From: Bradyrhizobium sp. CCGB01
GTDB taxonomy: Bacteria; Pseudomonadota; Alphaproteobacteria; Rhizobiales; Xanthobacteraceae
Direction: 5' to 3'
NCBI RefSeq assembly: GCF_024199795.1
Contig: NZ_JANADK010000001.1
Location: forward strand, 4,464,001 to 4,528,000
DNA: 64,000 nt
In this document: positions 20,813 through 26,842 of the stretch, piece by piece
Numbering within the stretch: the stretch's first letter is position 1
How the letters are laid out: each line of letters starts with the position of its first letter
The notes under the pieces: model-generated
Databases searched by the model: none
The model's input: only the letters and a program-made list of their open reading frames with translations
Told to the model about the DNA's origin: nothing
Position numbers and translations under genes: made by a program

Positions 20813-21499
20813 ATGGCGAAAGACACCACCGGCCGCTTGCACGTCCAGGTCAAGACCGGCGGCAAGCGCAAGCTCTCGTCCAAGCTGTGGCTGGAGCGGC
20901 AGCTCAACGATCCCTACGTCGCCAAGGCCAAGGCGGCGGGCTATCGCTCGCGCGCGGCATTCAAGCTGCTCGAGATCGACGACAAGCACCGGTTTCTGAA
21001 GCCCGGTATGGCCGTGATCGACCTCGGCGCCGCGCCCGGCGGCTGGAGTCAGATCGCCGCCAGGCGCGTCGGCTCCACGGAAGGCAAGGGCAAGGTCGTC
21101 GCCATCGATCTGCTGGAGATGCCGGAGATTCCCGGCGTCGATTTTGCGCAGCTCGATTTCATGGACAATGACGCGCCGGACAAGCTGACGGCGATGCTCG
21201 GGGGCGGCGCCGATGTCGTGATGTCGGACATGGCCGCGAATACCACGGGCCACCGCAAGACCGACCAGCTCCGCATCGTCGGCCTGGTCGAAACGGCGGC
21301 CGCGTTCGCCTGCGACGTGCTCAAGCCCGGCGGTACGTTTCTCGCAAAGACGTTCCAGAGTGGCGCCGACGCAGATCTGCTCGCCCAGCTCAAGCGCGAT
21401 TTTGCAACGGTGCGTCACGTCAAGCCCGCGGCGAGCCGGCAGGACTCGTCGGAGCGCTACGTGCTGGCGACGGGGTTTCGGGGCGAGGCGCAGCAGTAG
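20813..21499 (+). CDS. rlmE: 23S rRNA (uridine-2'-O-)-methyltransferase
   Basis: This 228-residue FtsJ/RrmJ-type enzyme methylates the 2'-O of U2552 (E. coli numbering) in the 23S rRNA A loop. The SAM site [15 protein letters not shown] is at about residue 69. The catalytic K-D-K-E residues are seen in [13 protein letters not shown] (Lys near 48), [11 protein letters not shown] (Asp), FLAKTFQ (Lys) and SSERYVLA (Glu). It is longer than E. coli RlmE by an N-terminal basic segment. It lies directly downstream of ppx and is the last core gene before the AT-richer island. Confidence 0.95.
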
Positions 21500-22020
21500 C
21501 CTCGTCATTCCGGAACTCCTCGAAGAGGCGAGCCCGGAATCCATTGCTCTGTGCACTCCTGCGCCATTTCGCCGTTCAAAATAGGGGGTTCTTAAAAAGT
21601 GCGCCTCGCGCGCCGCGCACCTATCTCTTTGCACACTGCCTTCTTCGTTCAATCTGTATGCACTCTTGTTTCTGCCTGTGCGCCCGGCGCGCAGTCCCCG
21701 GACGCGGTCCAAGCCGAGAACACAAATTCATCCTAAACTAGTGCAGCTCCATCGATGGCCCCTTTGCTTTGGAAGCGACTGAAATATTGCGTTGGCGCAA
21801 GTCAAAGCAGCAGACCAGCTTGGCGATAAAGCCCTGTGTCGGAGATTCGGCTCCCGGCGCCGTTTCAATTGGGTACTGCAAGCTGACCTTTTCGACCGGG
21901 AGGCTGGAGTGCCACATTGCCGAGCAGGCAATGCAGAAATTTTCCCTGTGAGCGCGAAGAGATGGTATCATTCACGCTTTGGTGGCCGTTCTTGTTTTTA
22001 TTTGTTGAGGAGTCGCCAAG
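21500..22020. other. 521-bp intergenic region bordering the AT-richer island
   Basis: It starts with a short palindromic repeat (about 21503-21542: gtcattccgg ... cccggaatcc). The rest is unassigned, with base composition changing to AT-richer towards the right. Small open frames on both strands (for example 21738-21971) lack ribosome sites or recognisable similarity. The promoter of the CHAT cassette must lie in its right half, but I see no convincing -35/-10 pair. Confidence 0.6.
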
Positions 22021-22437
22021 ATGGGTCTGCCAACTGATTTTGACGCTACCCTTTCCAGGATCACTAAGGCGGGGATACTGAAGGAAGATACGGATCGCAT
22101 CGAACATCGGCTCGATCTCGCTGCGCAGGGCGTTGGTGCCGCGGTCGCGGGACAGGACTTGGGGCCAGCGGATTGGGCTAAGGACTCGCTCCATAAGCTA
22201 AAGTTGGCCGTTCACAAGGAGCTTTGCGACCACAAAAAAAAGGAACTCAAAGCCGATTATAAAGGCCTGTTGGACCATGCCCTTACAACGGACGGAATTT
22301 CGGCCCTGTCATCCGTGATTGGCAACATCGTAGCCGCAATCAACCCTGCGTTCTTCGTGTCGACCATCGTCATTTATTTGTCGGTCTGGCTGCTCAAGCG
22401 TGGACTGAATCAGTGGTGCACGGTGAGTTACACTTAG
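22021..22437 (+). CDS. Small tail-anchored membrane protein, first gene of CHAT cassette
   Basis: I do not recognise this 138-residue protein. Residues 1-90 are charged and helical (LSRITKAGILKEDTDRIEHR; HKELCDHKKKELKADYKG), and a hydrophobic stretch at about 94-125 (ISALSSVIGNIVAAINPAFF then VSTIVIYLSVWLL) would anchor it in the membrane with a very short tail. A GAGGAG ribosome site (22008-22013) precedes the ATG. It lies 15 bp before the CHAT protease gene and in an AT-richer segment, so it is probably part of the same module, perhaps the sensor, target or effector. Its function is unknown. Confidence 0.8.
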   Translation: MGLPTDFDATLSRITKAGILKEDTDRIEHRLDLAAQGVGAAVAGQDLGPADWAKDSLHKLKLAVHKELCDHKKKELKADYKGLLDHALTTDGISALSSVIGNIVAAINPAFFVSTIVIYLSVWLLKRGLNQWCTVSYT

Positions 22438-22452
22438 CGGCGGTGACATCAA

Positions 22453-23706
22453 ATGTCGGGGGTCTTTCATCTGTATGTCAGAGACCTTGGAGAGGCGAAT
22501 TTCTCCGTAGGGGTCGACCGAGCGGATGATGTCGGGGAGCCCGTAGCGTGTCCGGACGATGCCGACTTCAGAGAGAAGCTTGCTAGCCTCTACGAGCGCG
22601 GTCTAGGCCGGCTGCAGATCGACTTGCCGAGCCATGACAGGCTGTGTTCGGAGCTCGGCGAGCAGCTGTTCCGATCTTTTATCGGGGCGGCTCCCAATGT
22701 CTATCGGGAATTCAAAAAGATTGCAGTCGCAGGCGGGCCGCGCGTTGCGCTTCATCTACCGCAGCGTCTCTTCAAGCTTCCATGGGAGGTTCTGCGCGAT
22801 CCGGAGAGCCCTGAGAACAATTTCATTGCGACGACGCAAGGTGGGTCCGTATTTCGTTGTGATGGGGATGGCCCCAATCCACGGGTGATCGACTATCCTG
22901 CACTACAGCCGCCGCTGCATTTCATATTCGTGCTTTCTAATCCTAGCGGCAGATTTTTCGGGACGGTCGCACCGCCGAATTCAACCCGTGATGTCAAATT
23001 CGTGATCGTCGATCCGGCTTCGTTTGACAAATATCGAACCACGATACGCAAAGCCAAGGGGGACAATCTCGGATTCATTTTCATCGGACACGGTCAGGTC
23101 TCCGCTGACAGGATCGGGCATATAGTGTTCATCGATCCCATACGGGAGAACATCTTTTTTCACAATTACGCAGAGAACCCGCGTCCTGGATGGAGTGTCG
23201 TTGGAGGCGTCGAGCGAGCACTGCGCCTGGGCTTCTTTTGCGCATGTGAAAGCGCTTGGGTAAATGAAGGTACGGACTTCTCGAACAGTGTCGTCGGCTC
23301 GACGCTGCGACGAAGCAAATCTGTCGGCTACATTATCGGTGCACAGACCCCGATTGATGCGCACGCGGCTCAAATCATGTTGGGGACCACCCTCAGCACC
23401 ATAGCAGATTCAACATTGGATCTCGCCCTTACCGAGGCGAGAAATTACGTTCGGGCAATACCGGTCTCTCGGACGCAACCGTATAGCGCGTTCGACTGGT
23501 GGGTTCCTGTATTATACACGAAAACAACGAACCTGCAGATTCTTGACAGGGCCGAAACATCTTTCGTTGCTGAGGCCGTCGCGCGTGTTCCACCCGCCAC
23601 AGCCCCAGGCATAAGCGTGCCACTGGAGGCGAGACCTCTCGTGCAAGCGATTGCACGGGACGTGACAGACCTGCTGGGGAACGGAAATGATGCAAACATC
23701 ATCTGA
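22453..23706 (+). CDS. CHAT domain (caspase-like) protease
   Basis: This 417-residue protein is a clear CHAT peptidase. The dyad is His213 in FIFIGHGQVS and Cys265 in LGFFCACESAW; further marks are LFKLPWEVLRDPESP (about 106-120), VGYIIGAQTPIDAHAA (291-306) and DWWVPVLYT (348-356). Residues 1-100 form a separate N-terminal region of unknown role; no TPR repeats are present. CHAT proteases are caspase relatives that cut specific partner proteins, for example in type III-E CRISPR. Here it sits between a small membrane protein and a ParA-like ATPase, overlapping the latter by 20 bp, so the three are one operon. The substrate is unknown. Confidence 0.92.
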   Translation: MSGVFHLYVRDLGEANFSVGVDRADDVGEPVACPDDADFREKLASLYERGLGRLQIDLPSHDRLCSELGEQLFRSFIGAAPNVYREFKKIAVAGGPRVALHLPQRLFKLPWEVLRDPESPENNFIATTQGGSVFRCDGDGPNPRVIDYPALQPPLHFIFVLSNPSGRFFGTVAPPNSTRDVKFVIVDPASFDKYRTTIRKAKGDNLGFIFIGHGQVSADRIGHIVFIDPIRENIFFHNYAENPRPGWSVVGGVERALRLGFFCACESAWVNEGTDFSNSVVGSTLRRSKSVGYIIGAQTPIDAHAAQIMLGTTLSTIADSTLDLALTEARNYVRAIPVSRTQPYSAFDWWVPVLYTKTTNLQILDRAETSFVAEAVARVPPATAPGISVPLEARPLVQAIARDVTDLLGNGNDANII

Positions 23707-25204
23707 CGGCCCGCCGCCCGGCACAGAATCCTCGCATCGCGGTACCGTCATTGCTTTCGTGAGCCCCAAGGGAGGGACGGGCAAAACTGTTATGTCGGCT
23801 ACGGCCGCTTATCTTCTCGCGAGAGCCGGCCAAAAGATCATCGCGATCGACGCCGATTTTTCGACGCGCGGTCTGTCTCTATATCTGCTCGGTTCTGTGC
23901 ATGATATCGACGTTCAGGATGAGAACTGTCTAGCCGAGATCGTTCTTAAGAACATTCCCACGTCAAAGATCGATCCTCGGCGCGTTATGCGCGGGTCCGA
24001 AATCAACCTAATCTTGTCCAACCAGGATCTCTGGCGCGGCGGCCGTCCCGACGGCGATTTTACGTCGGCGGACGTGTCGATCGATAAGTATCTTCAGCGC
24101 TTTCGTGAGTTGTGCGACGTGTTCCGCCTCCGGTATGACTACGTGATCATCGACTCGCGTGGGGGATACGACTTCAGCAGTGCGATCCCAGCTGTCATCG
24201 CCGACCGCTACGTCATAGTGCTCGAGGCGGACAAGGTATCGGTCGATCAGGTTCACGGCTTTCAAAAGGCGATTTTGGAATTCGCCTCGTCAAAAAACCT
24301 AAGCGCCAAATTCAGTGGGTTCATCGTCAACAAGGTGACGTTCCCTCCAGAGAACACAACCTTTTCCGACGGACTGAGAGGACTTTTCGGCGGCCGCACG
24401 ATCGGCGTAATCCCCGCCGATTACGATTGCATCAGGGCCTATCAGCTGAAGGAAATACCAAATGAAAAGTACCTTTCCAGCGACTTCGCCTACTATGCCT
24501 TCCGGACCATAGAGCAGCTTGTTGCTCCTGAGGCCAATTGGAAGAAGGAGGCCGTTGACGCTTGGCACAAATTGTACCGGCAAGTGCACTCCGAATGGTC
24601 GGGCCGCGTTTGGCTTCGGCGCCTGCAGAACCTCAGCATCGTCGGCCAGGCGCTCGTGCTGCTGACCTTAATAATCGGCGGATTCTTTCTCTACGACGGA
24701 AGTCCCTGGCTCGGTTACGCAACCTATTTTGGATTTGCCCTGTTGGCCAGCTGGGTCATCGCGGCGGCGGGCCTGCATGTGCAGAACTGGCTGCTACAAA
24801 GTGGGAAGTCCGCCGAATATCGCACGATATCGTTCGCGAGCGGCGGCGTCTGCATGATTCTCTTGGTGGCTTTTCTGGCCTGGGGAGCAAACAAGTTCTC
24901 GAACGCGCCGCTGCTGGCGAGAATATCTGAACAGCAGGAATTGATCGCCAGTTTGACGCAAAGATCGTTGGCCCTCAATGACAATCTTTCCAGGCTGATC
25001 TTCGTTTCACAGGACCTGAGGAGAGCGCAAGAACTCACCCAGGGCGTGAGCGCGCGTTTGGCCTCCGCTCCGCAGGACGACAAGGGCGCGGACTTCCTGC
25101 GCGGGTTGGCAGGTCCGCTCAAGGATGCGGCGAGCACCGTTGGAGACGCGTCTAAAAATCTGGAGCAACTCACGCAAGACTTGCAACAGAACAAGAGAAG
25201 GTGA
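23687..25204 (+). CDS. Membrane-anchored ParA/MinD-like ATPase with C-terminal coiled coil
   Basis: The 505-residue protein has a deviant Walker A (SPKGGTGKTVMSATAAYLL, residues 26-44), DADFSTRG (55-62) and Walker B VIIDSRGG (153-160), all typical of the MinD/ParA/BY-kinase SIMIBI group. Unlike partition ATPases it then has hydrophobic segments at about 318-336, 344-363 and 384-400, and a C-terminal soluble helical region (408-500) with heptad-like spacing. It has no ParB partner. Two ATGs (23687 and 23690) are possible; GGGGAACGGAA upstream may be the ribosome site. It overlaps the CHAT gene by 20 bp. I infer an ATP-driven, membrane-located switch or scaffold for the protease. Confidence 0.9.
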   Translation: MMQTSSDGPPPGTESSHRGTVIAFVSPKGGTGKTVMSATAAYLLARAGQKIIAIDADFSTRGLSLYLLGSVHDIDVQDENCLAEIVLKNIPTSKIDPRRVMRGSEINLILSNQDLWRGGRPDGDFTSADVSIDKYLQRFRELCDVFRLRYDYVIIDSRGGYDFSSAIPAVIADRYVIVLEADKVSVDQVHGFQKAILEFASSKNLSAKFSGFIVNKVTFPPENTTFSDGLRGLFGGRTIGVIPADYDCIRAYQLKEIPNEKYLSSDFAYYAFRTIEQLVAPEANWKKEAVDAWHKLYRQVHSEWSGRVWLRRLQNLSIVGQALVLLTLIIGGFFLYDGSPWLGYATYFGFALLASWVIAAAGLHVQNWLLQSGKSAEYRTISFASGGVCMILLVAFLAWGANKFSNAPLLARISEQQELIASLTQRSLALNDNLSRLIFVSQDLRRAQELTQGVSARLASAPQDDKGADFLRGLAGPLKDAASTVGDASKNLEQLTQDLQQNKRR

Positions 25205-25298: not shown

Positions 25299-25341
25299 GA
25301 TGGATTCCGGGCTCGATGCTGCGCATCGCCCCGGAATGACG
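25299..25341. repeat. Short palindromic intergenic repeat
   Basis: gattccgggctcgatgctgc and gcatcgccccggaatgac form an imperfect stem. It marks the right boundary of the AT-richer CHAT segment and lies between convergent genes, where it could act as a bidirectional terminator. Confidence 0.6.
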
Positions 25342-25351
25342 GAGCGGGTAT

Positions 25352-26842
25352 TCACCCGAGCCGCTGGTCCCGCACGTCCTGGGTATCTTCCGTCGCCGTC
25401 TTGACGGCGGCGCTGGCCGCGCTCTTCGCGGCACCCTTGCGGCTGGAAATGTCCACCGCCTTGCGGCCCGAGATCTCGCTGCCGGCGTCAGCGGGCATCT
25501 GCCAGAAGAACCAGCTCGAGGCCGCCGAGGTCAGCGCCACCACGACGAAGGCGGGCGCGAACACGGTGGCGTTGAGCTCGCTGACATGGCTCAGCCACAT
25601 CGTCGTCTCCACCGTGGCCGCGCCGACCGCGACGCCGGCGGAGACCGCGAGCTGCTGGTTGACGCTGACCAGCGTCGTGGCCCGGCTCATTTGCGCGGTC
25701 TCGACGTCGGCATAGGCCACCGTGTTGATCGCGGTGAACTCCAGCGAGCGGAAGAAGCCGCCGACGACCAGAATGACCATGATGATGAGCAGCGGCGTCG
25801 TCACCGTGAACAGCGCGCAGATTCCGAGGAAGAACGCGCTGACGATCGCATTCACCGTCATCAGATTGCGGAAGCCGAAGGTGCGGATGATGCGCGCGGC
25901 CAGCGTCTTCATCCCCATCGCGCCGAGCGAGGAGGCGAAGGTGACGAGGCCGGAATGGAACGGCGACAGGCCGAAGCCGATCTGCATCAACAGCGGCAGC
26001 AGGAACGGCAGCGCGCCGATGCCGAGGCGGAACAGAAAGCCGCCGAGCACGGCCGCGCGCAGCGTCGGCAGCTTCAGCAGCGAGAAGTCCAGCACCGGCG
26101 ATCCCGTCCGCCGCGCGTGCATGACATAGAGCGTCATCGAGATCGCGCCGCCGCCGACCAGGGCCGCAACCGTGCTCCAGGGCAGCAGGTTGAGCCCGGC
26201 CACGGAGAGACCGAACGCAATGCCCGCGAGGCCGATGCCCGCGAGCACCATGCCGTAGAGATCGAACGGCTCCTGCGTCTCGCTCTTGATGGGATCGATG
26301 AAGCGCAAGGCCATGAAGATGCCGAGCAGCCCGATCGGGATGTTGATCAGGAAGATCCAGTGCCATGAGGCGTAGGTCGTGATGAAGCCACCGAGCGGCG
26401 GCCCGATCACCGGGCCTATGAGGGCAGGGACCGTCACCCATGCCATCGCGTTGACCAGCGCGCTCTTGTCGACCGAGCGCAGCAGCACCAGGCGCCCGAC
26501 CGGCGTCATCATCGCGCCGCCCATGCCTTGCAGGATGCGCGCGAACACGAAATCGGTGACCGAGGTCGAGAGCGCGCAGCCGACCGAGCCGACCATGAAC
26601 ACGCCGACCGCGATTGCAAACACCATCCGCGCGCCGAAGCGGTCCGCGGTCCAGCCGCTCGCCGGGATGAACACCGCGAGCGACAGCAGGTAGGAGGTGA
26701 TGGCAAGCTTGAGCGTCAGCGGGCTCGTGCCGATGTCGGCCGCGATGGCCGGCAGCGAGGTGGCGATCACCGTCGAGTCCATGTTCTCCATGAAGAGAGC
26801 GGTGGCCACGATCAGCGGGATGACGCGTTGCTTGTCGACCAT
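25352..26842 (-). CDS. DHA2-family MFS multidrug exporter
   Basis: This 496-residue protein has the roughly 14 hydrophobic segments of the EmrB/QacA (DHA2) group. Motif C-like residues appear in WVTVPALIGPVIGPPLGGFI, the early motif FMENMDSTVIATSLPAIA carries the conserved acidic residue of TM1, and GWTADRFGARMVF is motif A. It would export drugs or lipophilic compounds by proton antiport in the inner membrane. No membrane-fusion partner is adjacent. The C terminus is a charged Ala/Lys-rich tail. The start at 26842 (MVDKQRVIP) places TM1 normally; an ATG at 26899 would add 19 residues. Confidence 0.92.
   Translation of the reverse strand: MVDKQRVIPLIVATALFMENMDSTVIATSLPAIAADIGTSPLTLKLAITSYLLSLAVFIPASGWTADRFGARMVFAIAVGVFMVGSVGCALSTSVTDFVFARILQGMGGAMMTPVGRLVLLRSVDKSALVNAMAWVTVPALIGPVIGPPLGGFITTYASWHWIFLINIPIGLLGIFMALRFIDPIKSETQEPFDLYGMVLAGIGLAGIAFGLSVAGLNLLPWSTVAALVGGGAISMTLYVMHARRTGSPVLDFSLLKLPTLRAAVLGGFLFRLGIGALPFLLPLLMQIGFGLSPFHSGLVTFASSLGAMGMKTLAARIIRTFGFRNLMTVNAIVSAFFLGICALFTVTTPLLIIMVILVVGGFFRSLEFTAINTVAYADVETAQMSRATTLVSVNQQLAVSAGVAVGAATVETTMWLSHVSELNATVFAPAFVVVALTSAASSWFFWQMPADAGSEISGRKAVDISSRKGAAKSAASAAVKTATEDTQDVRDQRLG

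Follow-up and report, generated by a model that had tools for sequence, protein, structure and literature searches.

Some CHAT-fold proteases are switched by SAVED filaments. In Craspase, as described in the excerpts of PMC9729208 at hand, the TPR-CHAT protease is autoinhibited and a neighbour-encoded protein, Csx30, is cut only with non-self RNA bound; in the same excerpts separase is kept in check by securin. Two further settings come close in the available portions of Kaur et al. 2020 (PMC7159879), these being the EACC1-caspase pair, in which a small membrane gene stands with a caspase and membrane sensing is proposed, and the VMAP conflict systems, which have MinD/ParA-like domains that the authors predict to be inactive. 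LypABC, a peptidase and ATPase lysis system, offers a general parallel (PMC13236601, in excerpt). Described here is a cassette of three genes, coding for a small membrane protein, a CHAT protease and a MinD/ParA-type ATPase with three predicted membrane segments, in a stretch of 64,000 nucleotides (the window) from Bradyrhizobium sp. CCGB01, the genome of which is a single contig of 9,317,328 bases (NZ_JANADK010000001.1, window at positions 4,464,001 to 4,528,000).

Judged by their homologues, the protease and the ATPase are a real, conserved pair. A contig size is listed for 17 CHAT hits, eight of which match one of the 28 ATPase hits exactly in this size, and in a control with sizes shifted by up to 500 the mean number of matches was 0.022, with at most one. 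Moreover, over the window and the eight pairs, the CHAT distances correlate with those of the first 300 ATPase residues (r = 0.961, reached by 0 of 10000 permutations), as they do when the three closest relatives are removed (0.966; 13 of 10000); shared genome ancestry could add to this correlation. The nine CHAT and 20 ATPase hits that stand without a listed partner are, with about 8,000 candidates scored for each, not evidence of absence. The small protein matches the contig size of a pair once (5,128 bp), with identities there of 90% for the small protein, 84% for CHAT and 84% for the ATPase, and its membership in the cassette is likely, though on slender support. An earlier note, made from the letters of this DNA, had proposed all three genes as one module; what is borne out elsewhere is the pair, and not a fixed trio.

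The protease has a caspase/separase fold, and the dyad that the note had singled out is intact, His213 lying in a GHG motif and Cys265 in ACESAW, both invariant across the 17 aligned sequences. This alignment left out three of 19 hits, namely the protein's own, shorter database entry (P0001), one with a lost frame (P0007) and a fragment (P0019). Pfam PF12770 matches 11 of the 17 members at E 0.01, the window's own protein having no match even at E 1. In agreement with the note's remark on a missing TPR partner, no Pfam family matches the protease at E 1, and the CHAT fold takes up residues 1-366, leaving a C-terminal end of about 50 residues of low confidence with one helix. The database entry has 360 residues; the full 417 are favoured here because the N terminus is conserved in the alignment. 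In P0007 the CHAT frame is lost before the histidine, on a contig equal in length to one with an intact ATPase, so that either the assembly is wrong there or the gene is broken.

The ATPase is assigned, by its motifs and by a CbiA match (1.3e-14), to the SIMIBI (MinD/ParA) class. In 25 of 25 aligned sequences, which exclude five of 29 hits (P0020, its own entry, P0023, P0025, P0027 and P0048), the deviant Walker A takes the family form KGG[TS]GKT, and K28, K33, D57 and D156 are invariant, residues which we take to serve as the signature lysine and as the switch and Walker B aspartates. MinD proper was considered and rejected, since TIGR01968 gives 40.4 bits against a cut-off of 212.9. As the note had claimed for this KGGTGKT protein, the window ATPase has three hydrophobic segments, which peak at about residues 317, 345 and 380. 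Exactly three such segments follow residue 300 in 24 of the 25 sequences, the exception (P0035) having two above threshold. In these 24 the lysine and arginine residues number 0-2 in the first loop and 2-8 in the second (means 1.1 and 4.3, respectively), with more in the second loop in all 24, counts that come from related, non-independent sequences and do not amount to a significance test. Because of this charge pattern, and given an ATPase domain inside, the tail is placed outside; the tail's own charges are mixed and favour neither side. The tails are 100-348 residues long in the 24, P0035 having one of 20, and they are less conserved (0.33) than the ATPase part (0.63); a Lamin Tail Domain is weakly matched in two of ten long-tailed relatives scanned, below Pfam's cut-off. 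Taken together, the topology points to a receptor whose tail lies outside the cytoplasm and not to a scaffold only, such that the note's idea of a membrane-located switch or scaffold stands as to location and is refined as to role. No ParB stands beside the ATPase, which is surrounded by the genes for CHAT and the small protein and by rlmE and MFS, in line with the note's absence of a partition partner.

For the small protein, the best of five models (predicted local distance difference test score, pLDDT, 86.5; the other four 45-58) shows a bundle of helices that ends in a hydrophobic hairpin, a shape that is thereby supported moderately; comparison of its fold gave no meaningful match. Of the tail anchor read by the note, the hydrophobic C-terminal membrane end remains; with two neighbouring helices modelled there, a hairpin and a single anchor are equally likely. 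Database searches gave 11 hits including its own, from 35 candidates scored, a low sensitivity for 138 residues; its alignment left out three of them (P0049, its own, P0057 and P0058). Seven full-length close relatives are 85-92% identical, higher than the close CHATs (76-84%, one 54%) and the close ATPases (76-84%). Residues 56-136 weakly resemble the candidate-defence model PDC-M35B of PADLOC (20 bits, E 1.4e-4, in a library without a cut-off; relatives 2.3e-4 and 4.8e-4). The module also turns up elsewhere, by itself in a second genome of the genus (E 1.6e-13) and, in a different genus within the order, as the end of a GDSL-like hydrolase (1.1e-7; the hydrolase match below Pfam's cut-off), a hint that different effectors may share a mobile membrane module. 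As a separate observation, the small gene contains a tract of eight A (22234-22241), and P0057, whose contig is 5,054 bp long, is identical to the window as far as this tract and continues after it in the +1 frame; the homopolymer indel is either a natural on/off variant or a fault of the assembly.

By its composition and its surroundings the cassette is a foreign insert. The note had called the segment AT-richer than rlmE and the MFS gene, and two measures agree: GC content is 0.54-0.56 in 1-kb windows that fall wholly or for the most part within the segment and 0.61-0.71 in those clear of it, and at third codon positions it is 0.60-0.69 in the cassette genes against 0.88-0.92 in four neighbours (Ppx/GppA, rlmE, MFS and guaB). 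With rlmE as a probe, matches were obtained in 24 other genomes of the genus from a sample of 41, and 20 of the 24 places were taken, at 6.0-6.5 kb each; none of the three genes is present in these 20 stretches (tblastn, 1e-10). In six of them rlmE and the MFS gene stand only 37-224 bp apart; the interval is 0.5-0.6 kb in two and is filled by 1.1-5.4 kb of other sequence or genes in eight, the MFS gene lying beyond reach in the remaining four. Against the six empty sites, the match of the window ends at 21483-21504 and resumes from 25317-25356. Near these borders lie two 42-nt palindromes that we read as like repetitive extragenic palindromic (REP) elements and that may have had a part in the insertion; a similar pattern has five further copies in the genome, and its exact form fits neither copy in the window. 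The interval differs among congeners (L079-L098), being empty or holding different genes, among which an FG-GAP protein, an autotransporter-like protein, a response regulator and a caspase-like TPR protein (L097) were named by eye.

Insertion is probably recent. A search of 265 genomes of the genus finds a close CHAT in this genome alone (579 bits), and 27 hold a weaker match of another kind (at most 77 bits). The wider searches, in which only the best few candidates per genome were scored, give a similar picture: across 397 genomes of the order, four have a CHAT match at 1e-10, namely this genome and three of the other kind, and the ATPase is matched in this genome alone among 299 of its phylum (1e-25), as was also the outcome among 149 genomes of its family (1e-20). 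No CHAT was found in 396 genomes of the phylum of G647 (Acidobacteriota) at 1e-15, and 188 of that of G649 (Myxococcota) gave no match, with no positive control in either. Plasmids gave no CHAT match and eight weak, partial ATPase matches; phages gave none for CHAT or ATPase; and viral contigs gave none for CHAT or the small protein and four partial ATPase loci (23-43%). An alignment scan with the ATPase also returned 49 loci on genome contigs, rejected as other MinD/ParA proteins (best identity 28% over >100 residues); a profile search of nine of the genomes concerned gave 0 of 9 at 1e-10.

The coordinates of the features are given below. The three open reading frames (ORFs) recover the packing set out in the note, with a 15-bp gap between the small gene and CHAT, a 20-bp overlap between CHAT and the ATPase and all three on one strand, a spacing and order that suggest one operon. 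The four flanking genes scanned with Pfam (Ppx/GppA, FtsJ for rlmE, MFS_1 and IMPDH) serve housekeeping or transport.

Table 1. Features of the cassette, its borders and related modules (window coordinates unless a locus is named).
Feature	Position	Strand	Remarks
Palindromic REP-like element, left junction	21503..21544	-	42 nt, near cassette border
Small membrane protein gene	22021..22437	+	138 aa; ORF list, homologues, alignment, structure model
Predicted hydrophobic hairpin of small protein, residues 90-127	22288..22401	+	hydropathy; helices 90-107 and 114-127 in best of five models
CHAT (separase/caspase-fold) protease gene	22453..23706	+	417 aa, without TPR; homologues, alignment, fold
Codon of presumed catalytic His213	23089..23091	+	invariant 17/17 aligned; codon checked
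Codon of presumed catalytic Cys265	23245..23247	+	invariant 17/17 aligned; codon checked
MinD/ParA-type ATPase gene, three membrane segments and C-terminal tail	23687..25204	+	505 aa; CbiA 1.3e-14, homologues, alignment
Deviant Walker A KGGTGKT, residues 28-34	23768..23788	+	K28, G29, G30, G32, K33, T34 invariant 25/25; T31 at least 90%
Three predicted membrane segments (starts 317, 345, 380)	24635..24880	+	hydropathy
C-terminal coiled-coil-like tail, predicted extracytoplasmic	24881..25201	+	loop charge pattern, 24/24 three-segment sequences
Palindromic REP-like element, right junction	25300..25341	+	42 nt, inverted relative to left one
PDC-M35B-like hydrophobic module, alone and at hydrolase C end	L072/L113:8626-9120 and L073/L114:7460-8920		

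By analogy with Craspase and separase, we propose that the ATPase is a switch and the small protein a substrate or effector. Lying in the inner membrane, the ATPase would have its variable tail outside and its nucleotide switch, of the MinD type, on the cytoplasmic side, and because of this topology signals would be received outside the cytoplasm. An envelope signal would then change the dimer or nucleotide state of the ATPase; the altered ATPase would free or position the protease, the C-terminal end motif of which may dock to it; and the active protease would cut or unmask the small protein, whose hydrophobic hairpin would act on the membrane such that the cell stops. In other words, the cassette would be a membrane signalling device made up of an outside tail, an ATPase switch, a CHAT protease and a small membrane effector, a tentative reading to which we attach a probability of roughly 0.4, and within which we infer the direction of signalling, the control of CHAT by the ATPase, the part of the small protein and a role in defence or cell death. 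A bolder form, a transmembrane death receptor of a new class in which the outside tail acts through the three helices on an ATPase that licenses the protease, releasing the hairpin as an executioner from the same operon, is doubtful. Several points weigh against a signalling cassette. The shared contigs are deduced from equal contig sizes and not read from DNA, support for the trio comes from only two places (the window and the 5,128-bp contig), and in one relative, P0007, the CHAT frame is lost. The small protein is well modelled only once in five. It also varies least of the three, which would be unexpected in a sensor and is not by itself the mark of a substrate. There is, moreover, no visible defence island, seven of eight flanking genes having no PADLOC match and the eighth, rlmE, matching mad2 over its methyltransferase part, which is taken as fold alone; CHAT itself matches no PADLOC model (0 of 17 members), the matches within the cassette being to the C-terminal half of the small protein and to the ATPase over its P-loop region only.

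The main rival is a non-lethal signalling role, in which the ATPase reads the state of the envelope, CHAT cuts a host regulator and the small protein is an anchor or adaptor. We consider it somewhat unlikely: no sigma or anti-sigma gene occurs among the four flanking genes scanned, and an accessory conflict system would account no less well for the rarity and the foreign composition. That CHAT and the ATPase are the whole system, the small gene being an accessory or the cargo of one lineage, would sit well with a pair conserved over wide distance and a small protein whose hits are limited to a close group and one relative at 43%; it is nonetheless quite improbable, given the low search sensitivity for so short a protein and the operon-like spacing and order. 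A chance or decaying cluster of foreign genes with no joint function would account for the rarity and for the lost CHAT frame of P0007 beside an intact ATPase (on contigs of equal size), yet the packed genes, intact motifs and conserved pair make it very unlikely. Hardly credible is a Get3/TRC40-like ATPase that inserts the small tail-anchored protein, with the protease as quality control; it would draw on the shared SIMIBI class and on weak GET3/ArsA-family matches, but the GET3 match is confined to the P-loop region (residues 24-58) and the ATPase is itself a membrane protein.

As far as the literature searches reach, the protease-ATPase pair is undescribed. No description of a CHAT protease combined with a ParA-like/MinD ATPase, and no paper on PDC-M35 of PADLOC, was found in the open-licence literature; the broader searches show no such trio among the titles and abstract openings listed, nor does the trio appear in the excerpts of PMC10907252, PMC8195603 and PMC13236601, in keeping with the note's statement that no such system was known. 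The CHAT proteases known to us are switched by CRISPR complexes (PMC9729208, in excerpt), by SAVED filaments or, for separase, by securin. If a membrane MinD-type ATPase does switch a CHAT, the control of a protease would be linked to sensing at the envelope, and an ATPase of the MinD family would serve as a receptor. Since the pair is conserved, it is open to direct testing with two active-site mutants.

Set beside the known systems, the proposed signalling cassette differs from Csx29, the TPR-CHAT of type III-E CRISPR, in that its protease is without TPR, no CRISPR effector stands among the neighbours and the likely regulator is a membrane MinD-type ATPase, and from separase in that its protease is short, without the long helical superstructure and without securin. 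Within the genus, the other kind of CHAT was seen at four loci read of 14 fetched (L099, L101, L104 and L108), each with a CHAT of 603-612 residues beside a 527-residue protein, with several membrane segments by eye, and near a response regulator gene; at L099 the protease matches CHAT, TPR and SAVED_CHAT and its partner nothing (Pfam at 1e-4). The likeness is that of a CHAT beside a membrane-type protein, the CHAT parts being 24% alike, and the differences lie in the TPR there and in a partner without a Pfam match. From PADLOC the likenesses are slight: that to PDC-M35B is weak and covers only the C-terminal half of the small protein, and that to the PDC-M28 B component joins ATPase residues 16-69 of 505 to profile positions 125-178 of 438, well short of full length. 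The arrangement recalls EACC1-caspase, as it appears in the excerpts of PMC7159879, in that a small membrane gene stands 5' of the gene for a caspase-class protease. In contrast, the protease here is without a variable effector domain at its C terminus, and the cassette has in addition a separate ATPase of the MinD type, its motifs intact. The small protein, helical in its one good model, may also differ from the 5' domain of EACC1, which has a single transmembrane segment with alpha+beta extensions. The VMAP systems of the same excerpts share a MinD-type domain in a peptidase-containing conflict setting; unlike theirs, the ATPase of the cassette has intact motifs and is fused to three membrane segments.
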